A DNA stretch of 12,746 bases from an uncultured Eubacterium sp. (lineage in GTDB: Bacteria; Bacillota_A; Clostridia; Lachnospirales; Lachnospiraceae): the NCBI GenBank assembly GCA_948468465.1, contig CAOKJJ010000151.1, positions 1 through 12,746 of the forward strand, given 5' to 3'. The notes beneath the pieces are model-generated. The model saw only the letters and a program-made list of their open reading frames with translations, did no database searches and was not told the origin of the DNA. Position 1 is the stretch's first letter; each line of letters begins with the position of its first letter. Below, in pieces: positions 4,493 to 12,507 of the stretch. A program made the translations under genes and the position numbers.

Positions 4493-5191
4493 TTAAAAAA
4501 TCTGCCTGACTGCACAGACCCCCTGCATTTTTTCAAGATACCAGACCACCTGCGCATTACTGCGATCCTCCGGAAGCCTTAGGGAAATGACTGCGTTGTA
4601 TACCCCGCCGTCCTTTGGCTCGTTCAGGATCACATTACCGACTTTCAGCCCGAACGCCTCCGCGGCAGAACGGATTTCCTGGAGTTTTACCACATCACGA
4701 AACTCGACATAGACGTGCATCCACATATCATTGTGTGTAAAATGATCAGAAATACCGCGAAACTTCGTCACAACGATGTAAACCGCTCCCGTGGCAAGGA
4801 TACCGCCCACATAAAACCCGATTCCGATCGCAAGGCCGATACACGCGGCAGCCCACAGGCCTGCCGCAGTCGTCAGCCCCCGGATCTTTGTATTTCCTTC
4901 AATAATAATGCTGCCCGCTCCCAAAAAACCGATCCCGCTGACGACCTGAGCGCCCAGCCTGGCCGGATCTCCGGTATGAAACTCCTCATACATATATTCT
5001 CCTGTCAGCATCACAAGCGCCGCGCTCATGCACACCAGCGAATAGGTGCGCATCCCAGCCGAACGATTTGCCTTTCCCCGTTCGATGCCCAGGATTCCTC
5101 CACATAAAATCGAAAGAGAGAGCCGCAGGATACCGGAAAAAATACGCATATTTTCTGCTTCGCTGATCAGATTGAAAAACCACTGTCCCAT
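4493..5191 (-). CDS. MgtC/SapB-family membrane protein
   Basis: This 232-residue protein has a hydrophobic N-terminal half with about five membrane segments (roughly 17-35, 49-64, 79-98, 107-124, 124-141) and the family signatures GIERG (35-39), RSAGMRT (43-48), SGIGFLGAG (85-93) and GLTTAAGLW (105-113). The C-terminal half (about 150-232) is a soluble ACT-like domain, as in full-length MgtC. MgtC proteins help cells cope with low magnesium and, in Salmonella, affect phosphate uptake and the ATP synthase; the role in commensal Firmicutes is unproven. AAGGGGG precedes the ATG by about 9 nt. It begins 68 nt after the permease stop with no promoter that I can see between them, so it may be read through from the transport operon. 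The length is normal and the frame intact. Confidence 0.88.
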   Translation of the reverse strand: MGQWFFNLISEAENMRIFSGILRLSLSILCGGILGIERGKANRSAGMRTYSLVCMSAALVMLTGEYMYEEFHTGDPARLGAQVVSGIGFLGAGSIIIEGNTKIRGLTTAAGLWAAACIGLAIGIGFYVGGILATGAVYIVVTKFRGISDHFTHNDMWMHVYVEFRDVVKLQEIRSAAEAFGLKVGNVILNEPKDGGVYNAVISLRLPEDRSNAQVVWYLEKMQGVCAVRQIF

Positions 5192-5259: not shown

Positions 5260-6552
5260 TTAATTTCCTGCTACCCGTCTTTCCAGCCGTTTCTGCCTGA
5301 TCTTTTTGATCTTGTCCATACCGCTGCCCTGTCCGAAATACAATGCAACCGAAGATAAGATCATCAAAACGACCGTATAGACAAAGCTCATCGCTCTGGC
5401 ATCCACAGATGCGGATTCATCGGACGCTGCTTTGATCACGATGCCAAGCGGCTGTAACAGCGGATGATACAGGAATACCGACATATCATAGTCCGACAGC
5501 AGTCCGTTAAAGTTCAGAATCACAACTGACATGACCATCGGGAAGATTACCGGAAGGATCACCTTGCGCATCGTAGTAAACGCGCCTGCGCCCATACATT
5601 TCGCCGCCTCCTCCAGATCACCGTCCAGAGAGAAGAAGGCCGCTTTGATCATCCGGTAGGAAAACGGCAGCTTGATCACCGTATAGCCAATCAATAAGAT
5701 CACGGTCGTTCCTACAAGTACTTTGTTAAAGATCAGCGGATTTTTATCGCCATAAGCTACGGTAAGTCCTAACGCAATCAATGTACTCGGCAGAAGCCAT
5801 GGAATCAGCACACCGTATTCAAACAATACATTCAGCTTGTTTTTGGACTTCTGCACAAACCGGACACAGATCACTGAGACTGCCGCCGCAAGTACCGCCG
5901 CCAAAATGGAGTATACGATACTTACAATATATGGCTCGATCGCTTCCATCGAAGTAAACAGCTTTTTGTAGTTATCCAGTGTAAAGGAAGCTGCGGTCAG
6001 CTCTCCGGTCTTGATCGTTAAAGAATCACAGAAGGAATACAACACGACGAGCACGATCGGCACCGTATAGATTGCAAACATCACATAAGCTACGACATGA
6101 GCCAGCACATTCAGCGCCGGGTTTTGGATTTTTTGCTTCGTCAGCTTCGCTTTTGTCTTTGATACCGAAATATAGTTGCCGCCCTTTTCGATTTTACTAA
6201 AAACAGACAGCAAAATAATCGTCGCCACACCGAGGATAATCGCCAGAAACGCGGCCACTTCCCTCGAATACGTAGATCTGGAAAACGTAATGATCATCGG
6301 ATTAATCGTCTGAAAATTCTCCCCGCCGATAATGACCGGAGCCGCCATAGCGCCAAGTCCGGTTAAAAACGTCAGGATCGTAATCGCAAAAAACGTAGGC
6401 TTTAATACTGGCATAACAATCTGAAATAAAATCGCCCCGCCCGAAGAACCCATATTCTTTGCCGCCTCGATCGTATGATAATCCAGGCTGTGGATCGCGT
6501 TTTTCAAAAACATCATATGATTTTGCGTACAGGCAAACGTCATAACAAACAC
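5260..6552 (-). CDS. ABC permease (FbpB/AfuB type), C-terminal part of a frameshifted gene
   Basis: These 430 codons hold the greater part of a two-domain inner-membrane permease. The first EAA motif (E29-A30-A31...G35, EAAKNMG) and the second (E315-A316-A317...G321, EAAKCMG) mark the two ATPase-docking loops, so both BPD_transp_1 domains are represented. About nine hydrophobic segments follow the frameshift, giving about 12 for the joined protein. The usual N-terminus is in the adjacent frame (6540-6998), and joining them by one extra base near 6555 gives about 579 residues, normal for FbpB-like permeases. There is no ribosome site at the GTG at 6552. An ATG at 6543 overlaps the TGA of the upstream part as ATGA, so reinitiation is conceivable. 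It would pair with the ATPase at 7019-8023 and the lipoprotein at 8060-9148. Confidence 0.85.
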   Translation of the reverse strand: MFVMTFACTQNHMMFLKNAIHSLDYHTIEAAKNMGSSGGAILFQIVMPVLKPTFFAITILTFLTGLGAMAAPVIIGGENFQTINPMIITFSRSTYSREVAAFLAIILGVATIILLSVFSKIEKGGNYISVSKTKAKLTKQKIQNPALNVLAHVVAYVMFAIYTVPIVLVVLYSFCDSLTIKTGELTAASFTLDNYKKLFTSMEAIEPYIVSIVYSILAAVLAAAVSVICVRFVQKSKNKLNVLFEYGVLIPWLLPSTLIALGLTVAYGDKNPLIFNKVLVGTTVILLIGYTVIKLPFSYRMIKAAFFSLDGDLEEAAKCMGAGAFTTMRKVILPVIFPMVMSVVILNFNGLLSDYDMSVFLYHPLLQPLGIVIKAASDESASVDARAMSFVYTVVLMILSSVALYFGQGSGMDKIKKIRQKRLERRVAGN

Positions 6553-6998
6553 GACGCGCCATAGCCTACAAACCAGGACGGATTCATATTCGGGAACACC
6601 TGCAGCAAAAGTTTTGTCAGCAGCCCTTTCTCGCCGTACACATATTTATATCCGGATACAAGGACAACGCCGCCGTAAACGAGCGAGCTCATATAGGCGA
6701 GTTTTAAAAGTCTGGCGCCTTTGATCTCCCAGTATTCTGTAAACAGCACGCACAGCGTCCCTACAATATTAACCGTGATCACAAGCGTAACCGCGAGGAC
6801 AAAGCTGTTCCAAAGGCTCTGCATCGCGCGTCTGGAAGAAAACACCTTACCAAATACTTCCGTGGACACCTGCCCGTCATGATAAAATACATTTCCCAAT
6901 AAGTATACCGCAGGATATACGATAAACGCAAGGATCATCCATGCAATTATTACTTTTAAGATGATGCCAGGTATGTTCATTTTTTGTTTTTCTTTCAT
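6540..6998 (-). CDS. ABC permease, N-terminal part of the same frameshifted gene
   Basis: This 152-codon frame starts at an ATG with AGGAGGA 5 nt upstream, 20 nt after the ATPase stop, so it is the genuine start of the permease. It has a basic start, then membrane helices at about 11-35, 62-86 and 98-118, and enters a fourth at about 142. After NPSWFVGYGA the frame runs into SCLL and TGA, while the neighbouring frame continues with VFVMTFACTQNHMMFL, exactly what the fourth helix should contain. One missing base between 6553 and 6557 explains this. Alone it lacks any EAA loop and could not bind the ATPase. It is therefore a broken gene, unless the shift is a sequence error or the two parts are made and assemble separately. 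Confidence 0.85.
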   Translation of the reverse strand: MKEKQKMNIPGIILKVIIAWMILAFIVYPAVYLLGNVFYHDGQVSTEVFGKVFSSRRAMQSLWNSFVLAVTLVITVNIVGTLCVLFTEYWEIKGARLLKLAYMSSLVYGGVVLVSGYKYVYGEKGLLTKLLLQVFPNMNPSWFVGYGASCLL

Positions 6999-7018: not shown

Positions 7019-8023
7019 TTAAAACTGCATAATATCTTTCGGATGCAGATAAATCTGGATCTGCTGCCCCTGCCTGAACGATGCCCCTGCATCATTCAGC
7101 TGGATCACCCGCAGTACCTCTCTGCCGACCCTGACACGGTATTTTGTGATCAGGCCGTTATAATCATAATCCATGATCTCGCCTTTTAACGCAACCCTGC
7201 CTTCCCCTGGCGCAAAATGGATCAGTTCCAGACGGATATATGCGTGTTTTGCCGCGTCTAGCCTGCCGCCTGACTGCTTGTTGATCTCTTCGATCACCTC
7301 TTTGCCCAGCTTATTAATATCGCCGATAAAATCACAGACAAACTCGGAACCGGATCGGTTGTAGATCTCCTGCGGCGTCCCGACCTGCTCTACATAGCCG
7401 TTGTTAAATACGGCGATCTTGTCCGATAACATCAGCGCCTCTTCCTGGTCATGCGTGACATACAGCGTTGTGATCCCCAGATTCTTCTGCAGCTTTTTTA
7501 ACTCTCCGCGCAGCCCGATACGCAGTTTTGCGTCCAGGTTGGAAAGCGGCTCGTCCAGACAAAGGATCTTTGGCTCTAACACGATCGCCCTTGCAAGCGC
7601 GACCCTCTGCTGCTGGCCGCCAGACAGCTCCGAGACATTCCGCGTGAGCTGCGAATCCTTGATCTCAATGACCTTTGCAACGTTTTTTACCTTCTGGTCG
7701 ATCTCACTTTTCGACATCTTTTTTACTTTTAGCCCAAAAGCAAGATTTTCATATACCGTCATCGTCGGAAAGAGCGCGTAGCTTTGGAACACCATACCGA
7801 TGCCTCTTTTTTCTACAGGCACCTCCAGTATATTTTTCCCGTCTACCAGAATCTCGCCGCCGCTCGGATTTAAAAATCCCACAAGCGCACGCAGCGTTGT
7901 CGTTTTTCCGCATCCCGAAGGCCCTAAAAATGTGAAAAACTCTCCGTCTGCAATCGTCAGATTCAGATTTTCAATCGCTGTAAAATCGCCATATCTGATC
8001 TCTATATTTTTAAAATTAATCAT
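7019..8023 (-). CDS. ABC transporter ATPase (FbpC/PotA-like)
   Basis: This 334-residue cytoplasmic ATPase powers the importer. All motifs are intact: Walker A GPSGCGKT (34-41), Q-loop Q80, signature LSGGQ (133-137), Walker B ILCLDEP (153-159), D-loop SNLD (161-164) and the switch histidine H191 (THDQEEA). A C-terminal TOBE-like domain (about 235-334) with DYDYNGLITKYRVRV and YLHPKD is typical of importers for iron, polyamines, phosphonates or sugar phosphates, where it can take part in regulation. The ATG at 8023 has GAGGTG about 6 nt upstream and gives the normal family start MINFKNIEIRYGDF; a TTG nine codons earlier is less likely. It lies 36 nt after the binding-protein gene and 20 nt before the permease. 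Confidence 0.92.
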   Translation of the reverse strand: MINFKNIEIRYGDFTAIENLNLTIADGEFFTFLGPSGCGKTTTLRALVGFLNPSGGEILVDGKNILEVPVEKRGIGMVFQSYALFPTMTVYENLAFGLKVKKMSKSEIDQKVKNVAKVIEIKDSQLTRNVSELSGGQQQRVALARAIVLEPKILCLDEPLSNLDAKLRIGLRGELKKLQKNLGITTLYVTHDQEEALMLSDKIAVFNNGYVEQVGTPQEIYNRSGSEFVCDFIGDINKLGKEVIEEINKQSGGRLDAAKHAYIRLELIHFAPGEGRVALKGEIMDYDYNGLITKYRVRVGREVLRVIQLNDAGASFRQGQQIQIYLHPKDIMQF

Positions 8024-8059
8024 ATGTGCCACCTCGTATTTTCTATCCAAGGCTGCTGC

Positions 8060-9148
8060 TTACATAAATTCCAGCTCAACCTTTTCTAACCACTGATCCA
8101 GGTTTTGTGCTACAAATTCCCAGTCGATGTCCTGCTGGTGTACTTTTCCAACAAATTCCTTTACATGATCCTCCGCCTGCTCAAACGCTGCCTTCTGGCA
8201 AGGCACGGTGCCGAACTTTTCCATCCACGCTGTCTGTGTCTCGGCAGAGCCGAACCAGTTCGCAAATTCGATCGCACGATCCTTATTGTCTCCGCCCTTT
8301 AAGATCGCAATCTGCTCCGTAACATACGGCACGCCGATTTCTGGGGACATGATCTCAAATTTGTAGTCTCTTTGCTCTTCGTTCTGCAAGACGCCGCTTC
8401 CCCACATCTCACAGATCGGATGGCTGCCGTCGATCACCGCTCCTACATAGTCCTCGCCTTCTGCTTCCATATGGCCGTTCTGCACCCAGTTTTTTACAAA
8501 CTCCCATCCTTCTTCAGAGATGCCGGCTTCGCCGTCCGGATCCTGATAACGTACCAAAAGGCTTGCCAATATGGTCTTTCCGGTACCGCCGCCAAAATTT
8601 AAGATTGTATATTTGTCCTTCCATTTTTCATCGGTAAGGTCTGTATAATCTGCCGGATACTCGTCCAGATCTGCATTCATAATATTTACAAGCGGCTGGA
8701 TCACAAGCGGATAATAATAGCCGTCCGCATCGCCGAGCGACAGATCCACTTCGTCCTTCCATTCCGGCTCCCACTGATCCAGTGTATCCTCTGCCTTTAA
8801 TTTTTCATATTCCACGTTATTTAATCCAAACACAAGATCTGCCTGCACATTGTTTTTCTCTGACACGATCCGGTTGCCAAGGTCGCCGCCCTGAATCTGT
8901 ACAACCTGCACATTAAATCCGTTTTCTTTTGCATAATCCTTTAACCATGCATCTCTGCCGTCAGAGCCGGAATTGGTATAGATGACAAGAGATGCGCCGC
9001 TGTCCTCTCCTCCGCCCTGCTGTGACTTTTCACTGTCTGTGTTGTCTGTATTACTGTTATTGCCGCCCCCATCTTTGCTTCCGCACGCGGATAAGGTGAC
9101 CGCCATCATTGCTGCAAGCCCTAACGCTAATATTTTCTTTACTTTCAT
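8060..9148 (-). CDS. Lipoprotein substrate-binding protein of an ABC importer (FbpA/AfuA-like)
   Basis: This 362-residue protein captures the substrate at the outer face of the membrane. A lipoprotein signal (MKVKKILALGLAAMMAVTLS, then AC) puts the lipidated cysteine at residue 22. A Gly/Asn/Ser/Asp-rich linker (about 23-53) precedes a type II periplasmic-binding fold from about 54. The opening ASLVIYTNSGSD and GGDLGNRIVSEKNNVQADLV, a central WKDKYTILNFGGGTGKT and a later EQIAILKG resemble the FbpA/AfuA group (ferric iron, sugar phosphate, phosphonate or thiamine binders). The paired tyrosines of classical ferric-binding FbpA are not evident in the C-terminal region, so iron is not favoured. 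AAGGAG lies about 9 nt before the ATG. It is the second gene of the operon, 44 nt after the phosphodiesterase. The substrate is inferred only from that neighbour. Confidence 0.9.
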   Translation of the reverse strand: MKVKKILALGLAAMMAVTLSACGSKDGGGNNSNTDNTDSEKSQQGGGEDSGASLVIYTNSGSDGRDAWLKDYAKENGFNVQVVQIQGGDLGNRIVSEKNNVQADLVFGLNNVEYEKLKAEDTLDQWEPEWKDEVDLSLGDADGYYYPLVIQPLVNIMNADLDEYPADYTDLTDEKWKDKYTILNFGGGTGKTILASLLVRYQDPDGEAGISEEGWEFVKNWVQNGHMEAEGEDYVGAVIDGSHPICEMWGSGVLQNEEQRDYKFEIMSPEIGVPYVTEQIAILKGGDNKDRAIEFANWFGSAETQTAWMEKFGTVPCQKAAFEQAEDHVKEFVGKVHQQDIDWEFVAQNLDQWLEKVELEFM

Positions 9149-9192: not shown

Positions 9193-10023
9193 CTACATCT
9201 TTTCATCCAAATAATTTCGTAAAAGCGCAGGCCAGTCCGTCTGCAGGATCTGATAGCCCAGATCGATCAGCCTGCCCCAGCTTTTTTCAAAGCCTTCTGC
9301 AATCGCCAGATTGTCGTCCAGACCGCCGGACAATACGATCTCATCGTTCAGACGGATCACATTGACCCACGGCAAAATCCCTTCGTCAGTCAGCTCCTTC
9401 AAAAACGCCGGGTCTGTAAACGGCCCGTTCAGATCGGAAAAGATCAGCTCTGCAGCCGCCACATTGACATCGTATTTTTTGACTGTTTCCCATTCCTCCA
9501 TTGTTTTTACGATCGGCATATACATCAGGCCTGTCCCGCTTGTCGCAAGCTCTGACAACAACCGCTCATGTACGCCCGATTTTAACAGGATCTGCGTATC
9601 CATCTCCTTTGCTTTTAAAAACGGAATGATCTTTTCCCAGTAAAACCAGGAGCGGTCAATATTAATGAAGCATTTCCCGCGAAACCGTTCCAGCACTGTG
9701 TCTAATCGTTCAACCCTCTGCCCTACATATTCCTGAAGCGAATTTAACGTCTTTTTAGACTCCACCTCCGCAGCTGTCATTTCACGGATATCCCGCCTGA
9801 TGCCAAGCTCCGCCGGCTCTTCCCCGTTGTGGAACGCGAAAAACACCCCGTCGATCGTCATGGATACGTCCACCTCGATCATATCAGCACCGTGTAAAAG
9901 CGCATTTTGGTACGATAAAATCGTATTCTGTACGACGCTCCCGCCGCATGTTCCCCTATGAGCCGCTATCAGCACCTTTTTTCTGCACACAGCTTCCTGC
10001 AGCTCTTTGTTTTTGCTGTACAT
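9193..10023 (-). CDS. Cytoplasmic glycerophosphodiester phosphodiesterase (GDPD family)
   Basis: This 276-residue enzyme is expected to split glycerophosphodiesters into sn-glycerol 3-phosphate and an alcohol such as choline or ethanolamine. The conserved core is present: HRG (22-24), NT (33-34), metal-binding E50 and D52 in MIEVDVSMTIDGV, and the second catalytic histidine H65 in AFHNGEEP. Two usual residues differ: the Glu before NT is Gln (VQNT), and HD is HN. It has no signal peptide, so it should act on imported substrate, like UgpQ. The ATG at 10023 sits 5-6 nt after AGGAG; an in-frame GTG at 10035 overlaps that ribosome site and is rejected. It is the first gene of the transport operon, directly behind the operator-controlled promoter. 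A related phosphodiesterase activity is possible. Confidence 0.88.
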   Translation of the reverse strand: MYSKNKELQEAVCRKKVLIAAHRGTCGGSVVQNTILSYQNALLHGADMIEVDVSMTIDGVFFAFHNGEEPAELGIRRDIREMTAAEVESKKTLNSLQEYVGQRVERLDTVLERFRGKCFINIDRSWFYWEKIIPFLKAKEMDTQILLKSGVHERLLSELATSGTGLMYMPIVKTMEEWETVKKYDVNVAAAELIFSDLNGPFTDPAFLKELTDEGILPWVNVIRLNDEIVLSGGLDDNLAIAEGFEKSWGRLIDLGYQILQTDWPALLRNYLDEKM

Positions 10024-10064
10024 TCTTCTCCTCACTTTCTTTTCTTTTATTTTGATGCATCTCC

Positions 10065-10093
10065 AGCTTATCTCAAATATTGGAACGTGTCAA
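10065..10093 (-). promoter_or_regulatory. Promoter of the phosphodiesterase-transporter operon
   Basis: On the minus strand a perfect TTGACA -35 box (10088-10093) is followed after 17 bp by TAAGCT (10065-10070). The start should be near 10058, about 35 nt before the ATG. The stretch upstream (about 10094-10135) is rich in A and T tracts and could act as an UP element. The -35 box is covered by an operator-like sequence. Confidence 0.75.
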
Positions 10094-10094
10094 T
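10079..10094. promoter_or_regulatory. LacI-type operator covering the -35 box
   Basis: ATTGGAACGTGTCAAT is a 16-bp imperfect palindrome (6 of 8 pairs) centred on CG, as in operators of LacI-family regulators. It overlaps the TTGACA box, so binding would block polymerase. It shares TGGAACGT with the perfect palindrome 109 bp upstream. Confidence 0.6.
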
Positions 10095-10188
10095 TAAATT
10101 TTTTGAATTTTTTAAAAATTTGTACAGAATAGTTAAATATTGCAGTTTGTTTTTATGCATAAATACCATTTTTTGTCTTTTTCAAAAA

Positions 10189-10202
10189 ATGGAACGTTCC
10201 AT
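10189..10202. promoter_or_regulatory. Perfect palindromic LacI-type operator
   Basis: ATGGAACGTTCCAT is a perfect 14-bp palindrome with the central AACGTT found in many LacI-family operators (PurR, RbsR, Cra). It lies about 137 bp upstream of the predicted operon start. The neighbouring fused LacI regulator is the obvious candidate to bind it and the -35 site together, with DNA looping. Confidence 0.65.
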
Positions 10203-10240
10203 ATATTGTTGTATTTCTATGAACAATTTATAAATACTAA

Positions 10241-10350: not shown

Positions 10351-12507
10351 TCAGTTAAACATATCATCGCAGATCCTTTGTGCATCTCTAAGCGCTGCCT
10401 CCACCTCCGCAGCCTCAAAAATGACATTCATAAACGCTGACCCAATAATATCCTCAAACGCAAATTCATCAAACCTGTCGTTAACCGCTTCCCTGTTTCT
10501 GCGCTTTCCTTTTTCAAGCATATTCCCGATATCCTCGATCCATGGATACAGTTCCAGCACTTCGGCGTTTTTTATCATATTCCGGTTTGGGATAAATCCG
10601 CCTAAATAAGTTACCATCTCCGCAGTCTCATCTGCATACAGCCATTCGAAAAACTTGCAGCATTCGGCTGTTTTTGACGAGCTTCTGGTAATACCGATAC
10701 TTCCGCCGCCCAATAGCGGCTGTCCTCCAGGCACCTGTGAAAAAATGATCTTGCCTGCCGCTTTTGCATTTATCGAATGTACCATATCCGAGGCATAGTT
10801 GGAAAAAGTAATATTCATCGCCGTCATGCCGTCAGAAAACATATTCGCTGTCTCCCGCCACCATAAATGCGTATCATTCGTCGCATATTTGCACGATTCC
10901 AGACAGGTGCAAAACGCCTCCTTCATTTCTTCGGTACAGACGCGCACCTTACCGTTGCAGTCAAACACACTCGTATTTTTTTCATAATAACGGAGCATGA
11001 CTTCACAGGCTGCCACAAACGATCTTCCATACGTCAGCGTATGCCCGTATACGGTCGGCGATCTGCGGTTGTTTTTCTGCGTAAAAAACCCTGCCGCCTG
11101 ATTGTATTCCGCAAATGTTTTGGGCACTTCCAGCTTTCTTTTGTATGTTTCATAAAACTCACGCTTAATAAGCTCGTTTTCAAACAGATCTTTGCGGCAG
11201 AACAACATCTGCACACAGGCATCCAGTGGGATCGCATACGTTACCCCATGAATGACCGAATACTCTTCCGAAATGCCGGGGATCAGCTTCTGCACGACAT
11301 TCTGCATCGGCTGGCTGTCCATATCCAGCTCCTGGTAAATACGTTCGCCATCCTTTTCCATCCATGCCATATCGATGCGCACAAGGTCGAAAACCGTTTC
11401 CTGTCCCGCCTGCATCTTGGATACCATTCTGCGCAGCTCGTCATAAGGCACTTCAATAACCTTGACATCGATGCCGGACTGCTTTTTAAACAACGGCAGC
11501 AGCCTTCGGATCGCTTTGCTTGTCGCATTTTTGACCGATAACAGACGCAGGGTTTCTTCTTTTTTTACCAGATAACGGGGACGACTGCGAAAGCTCCCTG
11601 CCTCTACAATCCTTTCCTCTTTTTTTTCTAAAATATCTTCCGCGATCCGATGTCCCATCAGCTTATAGTTCATCTCATAACGATTCTCATCCGCCAGCCC
11701 AAATTCTTTGTTTACGACCGCATAAACAACCGGCAGCCTGACATCCGGATTATAGCGGTTTGCCATATGCAGGCTGTCAACGTCTTCGTCAGACCTGGCA
11801 ATTACCGCATCAAACGAATCTGCCGCGTACAACACGTCAAACGCCCTGTTAAATTTCATAGGATCCGGCGCCGCAAAAACCTCAAAATAGCAGCCTTCGC
11901 TCTCAAACACTTCCGAAACCGCTTCTACAAACCTTTTGTCGTCTGTAAAACTAACATCCTCGCATAATACCGCGATGTTTTTATTCCCATCCCGCACGCA
12001 TTTTTCCGCGATCTCCCTGCCTGCCCTCGCATAGTCAAACGTCGCAAACACAGAATGCTTCGGAAATCCCTTCACGTATCTGTCCAGCATAATGATCCGT
12101 GTCCCTTCCGGAACGGACGCCTTATTTTTCAGCAGCGAACTTACAAGGATCACAGCTGTCGGATTACGGGAAAGCGCTTTGCTTAACAGCCTTTGCTCCA
12201 CATATTCCAGCCCGTTCGTACACAAAAGCTCCAGCGTGATCTCCTGCCGCCCAAGCTCCTGCTCGATGCCGGCATACAGCTCGCTGTATTTTGTCATATC
12301 AATCCTTGGCACAATGACACAGATATGCCTGGATGTGCCGCTCCTTAACTGGCTCGCCTGCGAATTGATCTGATATCCAAGCTCCTTTGCCGCCTGCTCG
12401 ACGAGCTTGATCTTTTCTGCGCTGACATTCCCTCTGCGGTTGAGTACATTGGATACCGTCCCATGGGATACCCCTGCGCGCTTTGCAATATCTTTAATCG
12501 TCGGCAT
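10351..12507 (-). CDS. LacI-family regulator fused to an ABC-type solute-binding domain
   Basis: This 718-residue cytoplasmic transcription factor has three parts. Residues 3-50 form a LacI helix-turn-helix (TIKDIAKRAGVSHGTVSNVL) followed by a hinge helix (SQASQLRSG). Residues about 60-315 are a LacI-type sensor domain (HICVIVPRI...LYAGIEQEL; IIMLDRYV). Residues about 320-718 resemble a full type II solute-binding protein of sugar importers: LLPLFKKQSGIDVKVIEVPY, DLVRIDMAWM, IPLDACVQMLFCRKDLFE, VPKTFAEYNQA, GGGSIGITRSSS. LacI proteins usually end near residue 340, so the extra 400 residues are a genuine fusion in one unbroken frame. There is no signal peptide. The start gives the canonical LacI N-terminus but has only a weak ribosome site (GAG) and lies inside a small upstream frame. 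It likely binds the two operators 150-270 bp beyond its 3' end. Confidence 0.9.
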   Translation of the reverse strand: MPTIKDIAKRAGVSHGTVSNVLNRRGNVSAEKIKLVEQAAKELGYQINSQASQLRSGTSRHICVIVPRIDMTKYSELYAGIEQELGRQEITLELLCTNGLEYVEQRLLSKALSRNPTAVILVSSLLKNKASVPEGTRIIMLDRYVKGFPKHSVFATFDYARAGREIAEKCVRDGNKNIAVLCEDVSFTDDKRFVEAVSEVFESEGCYFEVFAAPDPMKFNRAFDVLYAADSFDAVIARSDEDVDSLHMANRYNPDVRLPVVYAVVNKEFGLADENRYEMNYKLMGHRIAEDILEKKEERIVEAGSFRSRPRYLVKKEETLRLLSVKNATSKAIRRLLPLFKKQSGIDVKVIEVPYDELRRMVSKMQAGQETVFDLVRIDMAWMEKDGERIYQELDMDSQPMQNVVQKLIPGISEEYSVIHGVTYAIPLDACVQMLFCRKDLFENELIKREFYETYKRKLEVPKTFAEYNQAAGFFTQKNNRRSPTVYGHTLTYGRSFVAACEVMLRYYEKNTSVFDCNGKVRVCTEEMKEAFCTCLESCKYATNDTHLWWRETANMFSDGMTAMNITFSNYASDMVHSINAKAAGKIIFSQVPGGQPLLGGGSIGITRSSSKTAECCKFFEWLYADETAEMVTYLGGFIPNRNMIKNAEVLELYPWIEDIGNMLEKGKRRNREAVNDRFDEFAFEDIIGSAFMNVIFEAAEVEAALRDAQRICDDMFN

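Follow-up and report, generated by a model that had tools for sequence, protein, structure and literature searches.

A LacI-type regulator fused to an MBP-like solute-binding domain, and a candidate operator shared by its loci

Gene content of the locus

The window, by which we mean the whole stretch of 12,746 nucleotides analysed here, carries on one strand a regulator gene and, behind it, genes for a GDPD, a PhnS-like solute-binding protein (SBP), the ATPase and the fused PhnU-like permease of an ABC transporter, and a protein resembling MgtC. In order of coordinates these are:

4493..5191, minus strand: MgtC/SapB-like membrane protein (assigned by similarity)
5260..6998, minus strand: fused ABC permease, PhnU2-like, in two overlapping ORFs (6540-6998 and 5260-6552)
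7019..8050, minus strand: ABC ATPase, PhnT2-like (match below the cut-off)
8060..9148, minus strand: the operon's own solute-binding protein, PhnS-like (match below family cut-offs)
9193..10035, minus strand: GDPD-like glycerophosphodiester phosphodiesterase (GDPD and DUF4996 by domain search)
10351..12507, minus strand: LacI-SBP fusion regulator, an ORF of 718 aa

None of the best matches of the window's transporter genes reached the NCBIfam cut-offs. The true start of the GDPD gene is probably the ATG at 10023, since the orthologue in L001 starts at that Met. The C-terminal DUF4996 (PF16387) of this GDPD is a domain of unknown function. In L001, a 94% identical relative, the permease is a single ORF of 581 aa, and the split in the window may be a frameshift in the strain or an error of assembly.

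Architecture and conservation of the regulator

The initial annotation had described the regulator as a single unbroken frame with a LacI head, a LacI-type sensor domain and a complete SBP domain, and the 718-aa ORF has exactly this architecture:

10354..11559, minus strand: MBP-like solute-binding domain, complete, residues 317-718 (domain and fold matches)
11569..12336, minus strand: LacI-type core, residues 58-313, with F193 and V265 at the Arg/Asp pocket columns
12337..12366, minus strand: hinge helix, residues 48-57 (Leu54 in 117 of 117 homologues)
12370..12501, minus strand: LacI helix-turn-helix (HTH), residues 3-46 (PF00356, E 1.8e-15)

The solute-binding fold expected by that annotation was found by domain search in residues 317-718, and structure prediction supported both the LacI-type and the MBP-like folds. 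The predicted two-lobed PBP type I core matched RbsR (9ny8) with a TMt of 0.72, and in profile comparison it also matched CcpA. The SBP domain has a full two-lobed MBP-like fold of the SBP_bac_1/8 kind, and the solved SBPs nearest to it are sugar-binding types. The Pfam listing up to E 1, with 13 families, contains neither the SgrR-type HTH nor SBP_bac_5. No signal peptide had been seen in the first reading, and we also found no export signal: the N-terminus is occupied by the HTH, and the maximum 19-residue hydropathy was 1.36. For this reason the protein would not be filed as an ABC solute-binding protein; only its domain is such. That this domain arose by copying the operon's SBP was rejected, because the latter is PhnS-like.

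Conservation was compared in 117 homologues. Their mean pairwise identity fell from 78% for the HTH plus hinge to 48% for the SBP domain and 37% for the LacI core. The recognition residues of the HTH are nearly fixed (H15 in 116, G16 in 116 and N20 in 117 of the 117), and residues of the fold and of DNA binding are mostly kept, with P67 in 117, E104 in 115 and Leu54, which we take to be the DNA-intercalating Leu of the LacI/GalR hinge helix, in all. In the SBP domain, D374, R377, D379, W382, D429, W550, G600-602, W622 and W656 are invariant, and the alignment to 5iai suggests that D379, W382, D429 and G600-602 line the cleft.

Family size, spread and naming

In the protein search 256 relatives scored E 1e-3 or better, and of the 120 among the matches listed, 117 had lengths of 717-771 aa. 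Searching with L082, a distant member, brought 76 matches, 70 of which are LacI-SBP fusions; many matches of this search retain Peripla_BP_3 similarity, and the eleven of its fusions that were placed on the SBP tree fell in the other main branch than the window protein. The surmise that similar fusions may exist thus holds for a widespread family. A genome scan with two short HTH patterns revealed 24 fusion loci (L001-L024) within the best 80 matches, L023 being truncated by a contig end; together with the window they form the 25 loci referred to below.

Counting the centre genome each time, fusions occurred in 30 of 348 genomes in the taxonomic family of L001 (Eubacterium MAG), 5 of 104 in that of L005 (Paenibacillus) and 11 of 101 in that of L002 (Sphaerochaeta). 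Wide phylum samples had fusions in at least 2 of 398 and at least 2 of 299 genomes, which are lower bounds with 2-3 candidates scored per genome, and the centre genome is one of the two in each. Some genomes have two or three fusions.

The name given to the protein was 'extracellular solute-binding protein' in all five E. coli matches listed and in 13 of the 15 plasmid matches listed, a label contradicted by the predicted N-terminal HTH. In the L082 search some members appear under a JGI name, 'DNA-binding LacI/PurR family transcriptional regulator/ABC-type glycerol-3-phosphate transport s...'; the architecture is therefore visible in databases, apparently without explanation as far as we have seen.

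The search for standalone SBP domains gave 20 matches at E up to 1e-10, eight of them with PF00356 or a LacI name. Several of the others lie on contigs of 1.1-1.6 kb, and no clear standalone parent family appeared among those of the 20 that were examined; the remainder includes P0129 (359 aa, on a 9.8 kb contig). Another of the 20, the odd P0136 (430 aa), joins pieces of the regulator and of the operon permease with internal gaps, and we judge it to be a decayed or mis-assembled copy of this locus.

Neighbour genes

The GDPD/SBP/ATPase/permease set, a GDPD with a PhnSTU-like ABC transporter, was found in 6 of the 25 loci (the window, L001-L004 and L009). Another seven loci, from Paenibacillus (L005), Klebsiella (L006 and L007), Haemophilus (L013), Gilliamella (L018), Serratia (L020) and Providencia (L021), have a PhnP-like metallo-hydrolase/phosphodiesterase with an MFS protein resembling nucleoside H+ symporters, and six of the seven also have an MgtC-like gene. 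L022 has a GDPD and a metallo-hydrolase together. For the genes of the PhnP-like and MFS kind, members of L005, L007 and L022 were assigned by family searches and the others by similarity. HAD-type hydrolases are present at L010, L019, L023 and L024 (by family search in L010 only). A sugar-type ABC transporter, which we call ribose-type judging by the size of its ATPase, is present at L011, L012, L014 and L016. An MgtC-like gene lies close to the regulator in 9 of the 25 loci.

The adjoining of regulator and transporter genes in many loci raises the idea that the SBP domain is a protein-contact domain, docking for example to the transporter of the operon so that transporter activity sets repression. 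MalK acts thus on MalT, transporter activity setting the state of the regulator, and the fold of the SBP domain is that of proteins which dock to ABC transporters. However, the neighbouring transporters are of unlike types (PhnU-like ABC, MFS symporter and ribose-like ABC), and the invariant D379, W382, D429 and G600-602 would lie in the ligand cleft according to the 5iai alignment. We hold docking to be improbable.

A candidate operator

The palindrome search in intergenic regions revealed one palindrome common to distant phyla, ATTGGAACGTTCCAAT and close forms, with a central CG at the target promoters in the sequence comparison. The pattern used for the scans was WTTGRMACGTKYCAAW. The window contains two sites 109 bp apart, with the proximal site oriented toward the GDPD gene:

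10079..10094, no strand assigned: proximal operator ATTGACACGTTCCAAT (minus strand), no mismatch to the pattern, overlapping the -35 hexamer
10188..10203, no strand assigned: distal operator AATGGAACGTTCCATA, 2 mismatches to the pattern, also present in L001

In the window alone, two sites are within chance (21 of 200 shuffles gave as many at up to 3 mismatches), and the case for the candidate operator rests on comparison across loci, not on the window by itself. A site at up to 2 mismatches is present in 24 of the 25 loci, L019 being the one without, and 18 have it at least twice; the shuffle expectation is about 0.3 per locus. Exact copies numbered 14 in 420 kb of fusion loci against 1 in 977 kb of 56 ordinary LacI loci, and 20 of the 24 fusion loci had a site within 1 kb of the gene, compared with 2 of the 56 ordinary ones, both contrasts being made with a pattern fitted on these same fusion loci.

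In 13 whole genomes the exact core occurred at 14 places in 11 genomes, and 12 of the 14 are at a fusion locus; the control with the pattern read backwards gave 3 places. Two of these 12 cores lie 2-4 kb from the regulator, ahead of structural genes. In L012, L013 and L018 the operator is upstream of the structural genes and not of the regulator gene, 2-4 kb from the latter. G002 and G004 have no exact core genome-wide. The two cores off the fusion locus (G008, contig 29 at 11094; G012, contig 63 at 58804) are possible second targets.

The test set comprised 45 loci outside pattern building, 37 of which were readable; the scan, at up to 2 mismatches, reached as far as 1.5 kb into the flanks (7 kb in L135). 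The motif filter left L093, L102, L103, L105, L109, L115, L116 and L127 unread; L093, outside the 37, has a site with 1 mismatch. Four loci that duplicate others were excluded: L089 (a copy of L001), L095 (of L012), L121 (of L005) and L122 (of L002). Among test loci whose recognition residues at positions 15, 16 and 20 are x-G-N, 16 of 26 had an operator at up to 2 mismatches against 1.1 in shuffled sequence, and with 1 mismatch allowed at most the figures were 13 of 26 and 0.0; L118-L120 are close to each other and some test loci are close to pattern-building loci. Ten of the 26 had no operator at up to 2 mismatches, and the fusions of other residue types had one in 2 of 11 (0.3 shuffled). 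By residue type, the operator was found in 9/9 loci with H15-G16-N20 (six exact), 5/6 with Q-G-N, and none of those with I-G-N (0/4), L-G-N (0/4) or I-A-C (0/5). L098, L101, L108, L110 and L112 are fusions with the residues I-A-C and no copy of the operator.

The half-site varied with residue 15. Of the 9 H15 test loci with a site 8 had TTGG, and of the 9 other test loci with a site none did (Fisher p 0.0004, with kinship ignored); in the first set TTGG is also missing from the Q15 loci L008 and L015 and from the Leu15 locus L013. TTGG is not exclusive to His15, because L024, with Arg15, also has TTGG halves. We take this covariation between residue 15 and the half-site to tie the fusion protein to the predicted operator.

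Autoregulation in the window was rejected, as no operator was found upstream of the regulator, from its start to the end of the window. Elsewhere the spacing of operators is 21-278 bp. DNA looping between operators is unsupported, since 17 spacings gave no clear helical period.

Overlap with the -35 box

A promoter for the structural operon was proposed at the proximal site:

10065..10093, minus strand: putative structural-operon promoter, TTGACA (10093-10088), 17 bp, TAAGCT (10070-10065)

The -10 sequence TAAGCT is weak, with 3 mismatches. A stricter scan of the region for promoter-like sequences omits this promoter, and the promoter-like and terminator-like results were near chance. Across the loci, an operator containing an exact TTGACA, followed 16-18 bp on by a -10-like hexamer with no more than 3 mismatches, was found in 15 of 25, a count made with no shuffled control: the window, L001-L003, L005-L007, L009, L010, L015, L016 and L021-L024. 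The -10 hexamer is perfect in L015 and L022 and poor in the window, L007, L010 and L021; in L021 the promoter is directed at the regulator gene. The overlap would explain the asymmetry of many sites, and it points to repression by blocking of the -35 box.

Activation was considered in place of repression. SgrR is described as an activator of sgrS (PMC4021124), and its homologue DsvR as an HTH with SBP_bac_5 (PMC13060122). Like the fusion, both are cytoplasmic transcription factors that carry an SBP domain of the transporter type at the C-terminus; they differ in the SBP family and, as described there, have no LacI HTH or core. The second site, which in most loci is further from the promoter, could suit an activator. 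The proximal site, however, covers TTGACA in 15 of the 25 loci, which is a place for blocking RNA polymerase. We regard activation as very unlikely, a shade below docking.

Which domain senses

The usual effector pocket of LacI proteins is anchored by an Arg and an Asp, presumably R197 and D274 in LacI numbering. In the alignment of 54 of the 56 ordinary LacI loci (those passing a length filter) with 26 fusions, 49 of the ordinary proteins had R in the Arg column and 4 had K, whereas the fusions had no R and F in 16. The Asp column held D in 45 of the 54 but in only 2 of the 26. A second comparison used every second of those ordinary loci and 123 fusions of both branches. Among these fusions were 30 rows, every fourth of P0002-P0119, and 68 rows from P0138-P0207, with a length filter on both sets. 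In this comparison R was present in 26 of 27 ordinary proteins and in none of the fusions; K stands in a single fusion, the L082 protein P0138, which thus has a Lys-Asp pair. Asp was kept in 18 of the 123, and 16 of these 18 came from the L082 search. The 37 test loci had no R either. Two of the three CcpA sequences aligned also have no pocket Arg (V and K; the third has Arg), so this pocket appears usual in the LacI/GalR family and not defining for it. By alignment, the polar anchors of the usual pocket are mostly gone in the fusions.

The initial annotation had proposed two pockets integrating two metabolites, with the LacI core and the SBP domain each binding one. Both lobed domains are predicted complete, which suits this reading. 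Against it, the anchors are mostly lost and the LacI core is the least conserved part. The Asp-keeping fusions, mostly of the other main branch, may retain two pockets, as the Lys-Asp pair of P0138 and the persisting Peripla_BP_3 similarity in the L082 search would allow. The LacI core also keeps R143 (110 of 117) and F193 (112 of 117), and for this reason it may bind something else. For the regulator at large, two working pockets seem to us unlikely, though less so than docking. The best fit is with the other possibility raised by the same annotation, a cytoplasmic sensor of transporter origin. From the loss of the anchors, the pattern of identity and the invariant SBP residues, the LacI core looks like a scaffold and the SBP domain like the sensor; sensing is probably done by the borrowed SBP domain, with the protein's own LacI pocket seemingly abandoned.

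On a tree of 42 SBP domains with 22 labelled rows, the type of neighbour genes changed 6 times, which is the minimum, against a shuffled mean of 13.1; this match would also be expected if the whole protein was inherited together with its neighbours, and near-copies aid it.

As to the ligand, our guess is that the signal is probably an imported phosphodiester or what remains after its cleavage, because two unlike types of phosphodiesterase (GDPD and PhnP-like) accompany the regulator. A polyol or a nucleoside/sugar moiety of a phosphodiester is suggested with low confidence. The phosphate-holding serine of UgpB (PMC12718374) falls on D429-Ala-Cys of the fusion in a weak alignment (15% identity), and a UgpB-like phosphate pocket is unsupported.

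Proposed mechanism and comparison with known systems

We consider it likely that the protein is a cytoplasmic one-component repressor in which sensing has moved from the LacI core to the fused SBP domain. A LacI-type dimer would bind palindromes like ATTGGAACGTTCCAAT, and the site over the -35 box of the transport/phosphodiesterase operon promoter would block RNA polymerase. The second intergenic site may give stronger binding, or cover the regulator's own promoter where its gene is divergent. An imported solute or its breakdown product would close the SBP domain; the LacI core, mainly for dimerisation and as an allosteric scaffold, would relay the signal to the hinge helix, the regulator would leave the DNA and the operon would be expressed. 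Computation shows the architecture and predicted fold, the operator and its tie to the protein, the neighbour genes and the lost LacI anchors, whereas the dimer, repression in place of activation, sensing by the SBP domain and induction by a ligand are inferred. The wider reading is one to which we give even weight for and against: that a fusion of LacI and MBP-like proteins founded a superfamily in Clostridia, Paenibacillaceae, spirochaetes and Enterobacterales, that the sugar pocket was abandoned and sensing handed to the SBP, and that specificities evolved in the SBP domain while the head and operator of the main branch stayed nearly fixed.

With LacI/GalR repressors (RbsR, PurR and CcpA) the fusion shares the HTH, the hinge helix, the core fold and a palindromic operator with central CG; it differs by the added MBP-like domain of 400 residues and by the loss of the pocket Arg and mostly of the Asp. 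CUT1-type SBPs (5iai, 4rya, SmoF and UgpB) are also among the closest known systems, and the fusion differs from them in having no export signal; in the weak alignment it has Asp/Ala/Cys at the position of the UgpB phosphate-holding Ser. Btr, like the fusion, is a transcription factor with an SBP sensor. It combines an AraC-type HTH with a siderophore-binding domain of the class III SBP fold, without a second PBP-like domain. PMC9602780 remarks in general terms that transcriptional regulators can have SBP Pfam domains as their sensors. In the main text of a LacI regulon survey (PMC4052901) none of six words for such a fusion occurs. The annotation knew of no characterised fusion, and among the best matches in the open-access literature we found no account of one either. 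Regulators with an SBP sensor are thus already known; LacI sensing passed to a second, MBP-like domain was found in none of the open-access papers covered.

If the repressor reading is right, proteins now named as extracellular transporter parts would be local repressors with predictable operators, and many unassigned sets of transport and phosphodiesterase genes would become testable regulons. The fusion would then exemplify a sensor domain swapped by nature inside a classic repressor, and would serve as a template for biosensors in which MBP-type binding proteins are joined to LacI heads. Should the sensor handover be true, the family would offer a modular scaffold for biosensors made by nature, hidden for the most part behind the label 'extracellular solute-binding protein'.

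Plasmid-borne copies

In E. coli the fusion was found in 46 of 5426 genomes, with 44 of the 46 places plasmid-borne, and 50 of 72,556 plasmid records carry it. The E. coli plasmid module has the same make-up as the loci with PhnP-like and MFS genes. An MgtC/SapB-like gene accompanies the regulator across phyla, in the window, L003-L007, L013, L020, L021 and this plasmid locus (L085). The module of L085 (5849-11175) comprises MgtC, MFS and MBL genes with a divergent LacI-SBP regulator and insertion sequences around, and copies of the operator are present at 8726 (exact) and 8916 (2 mismatches).
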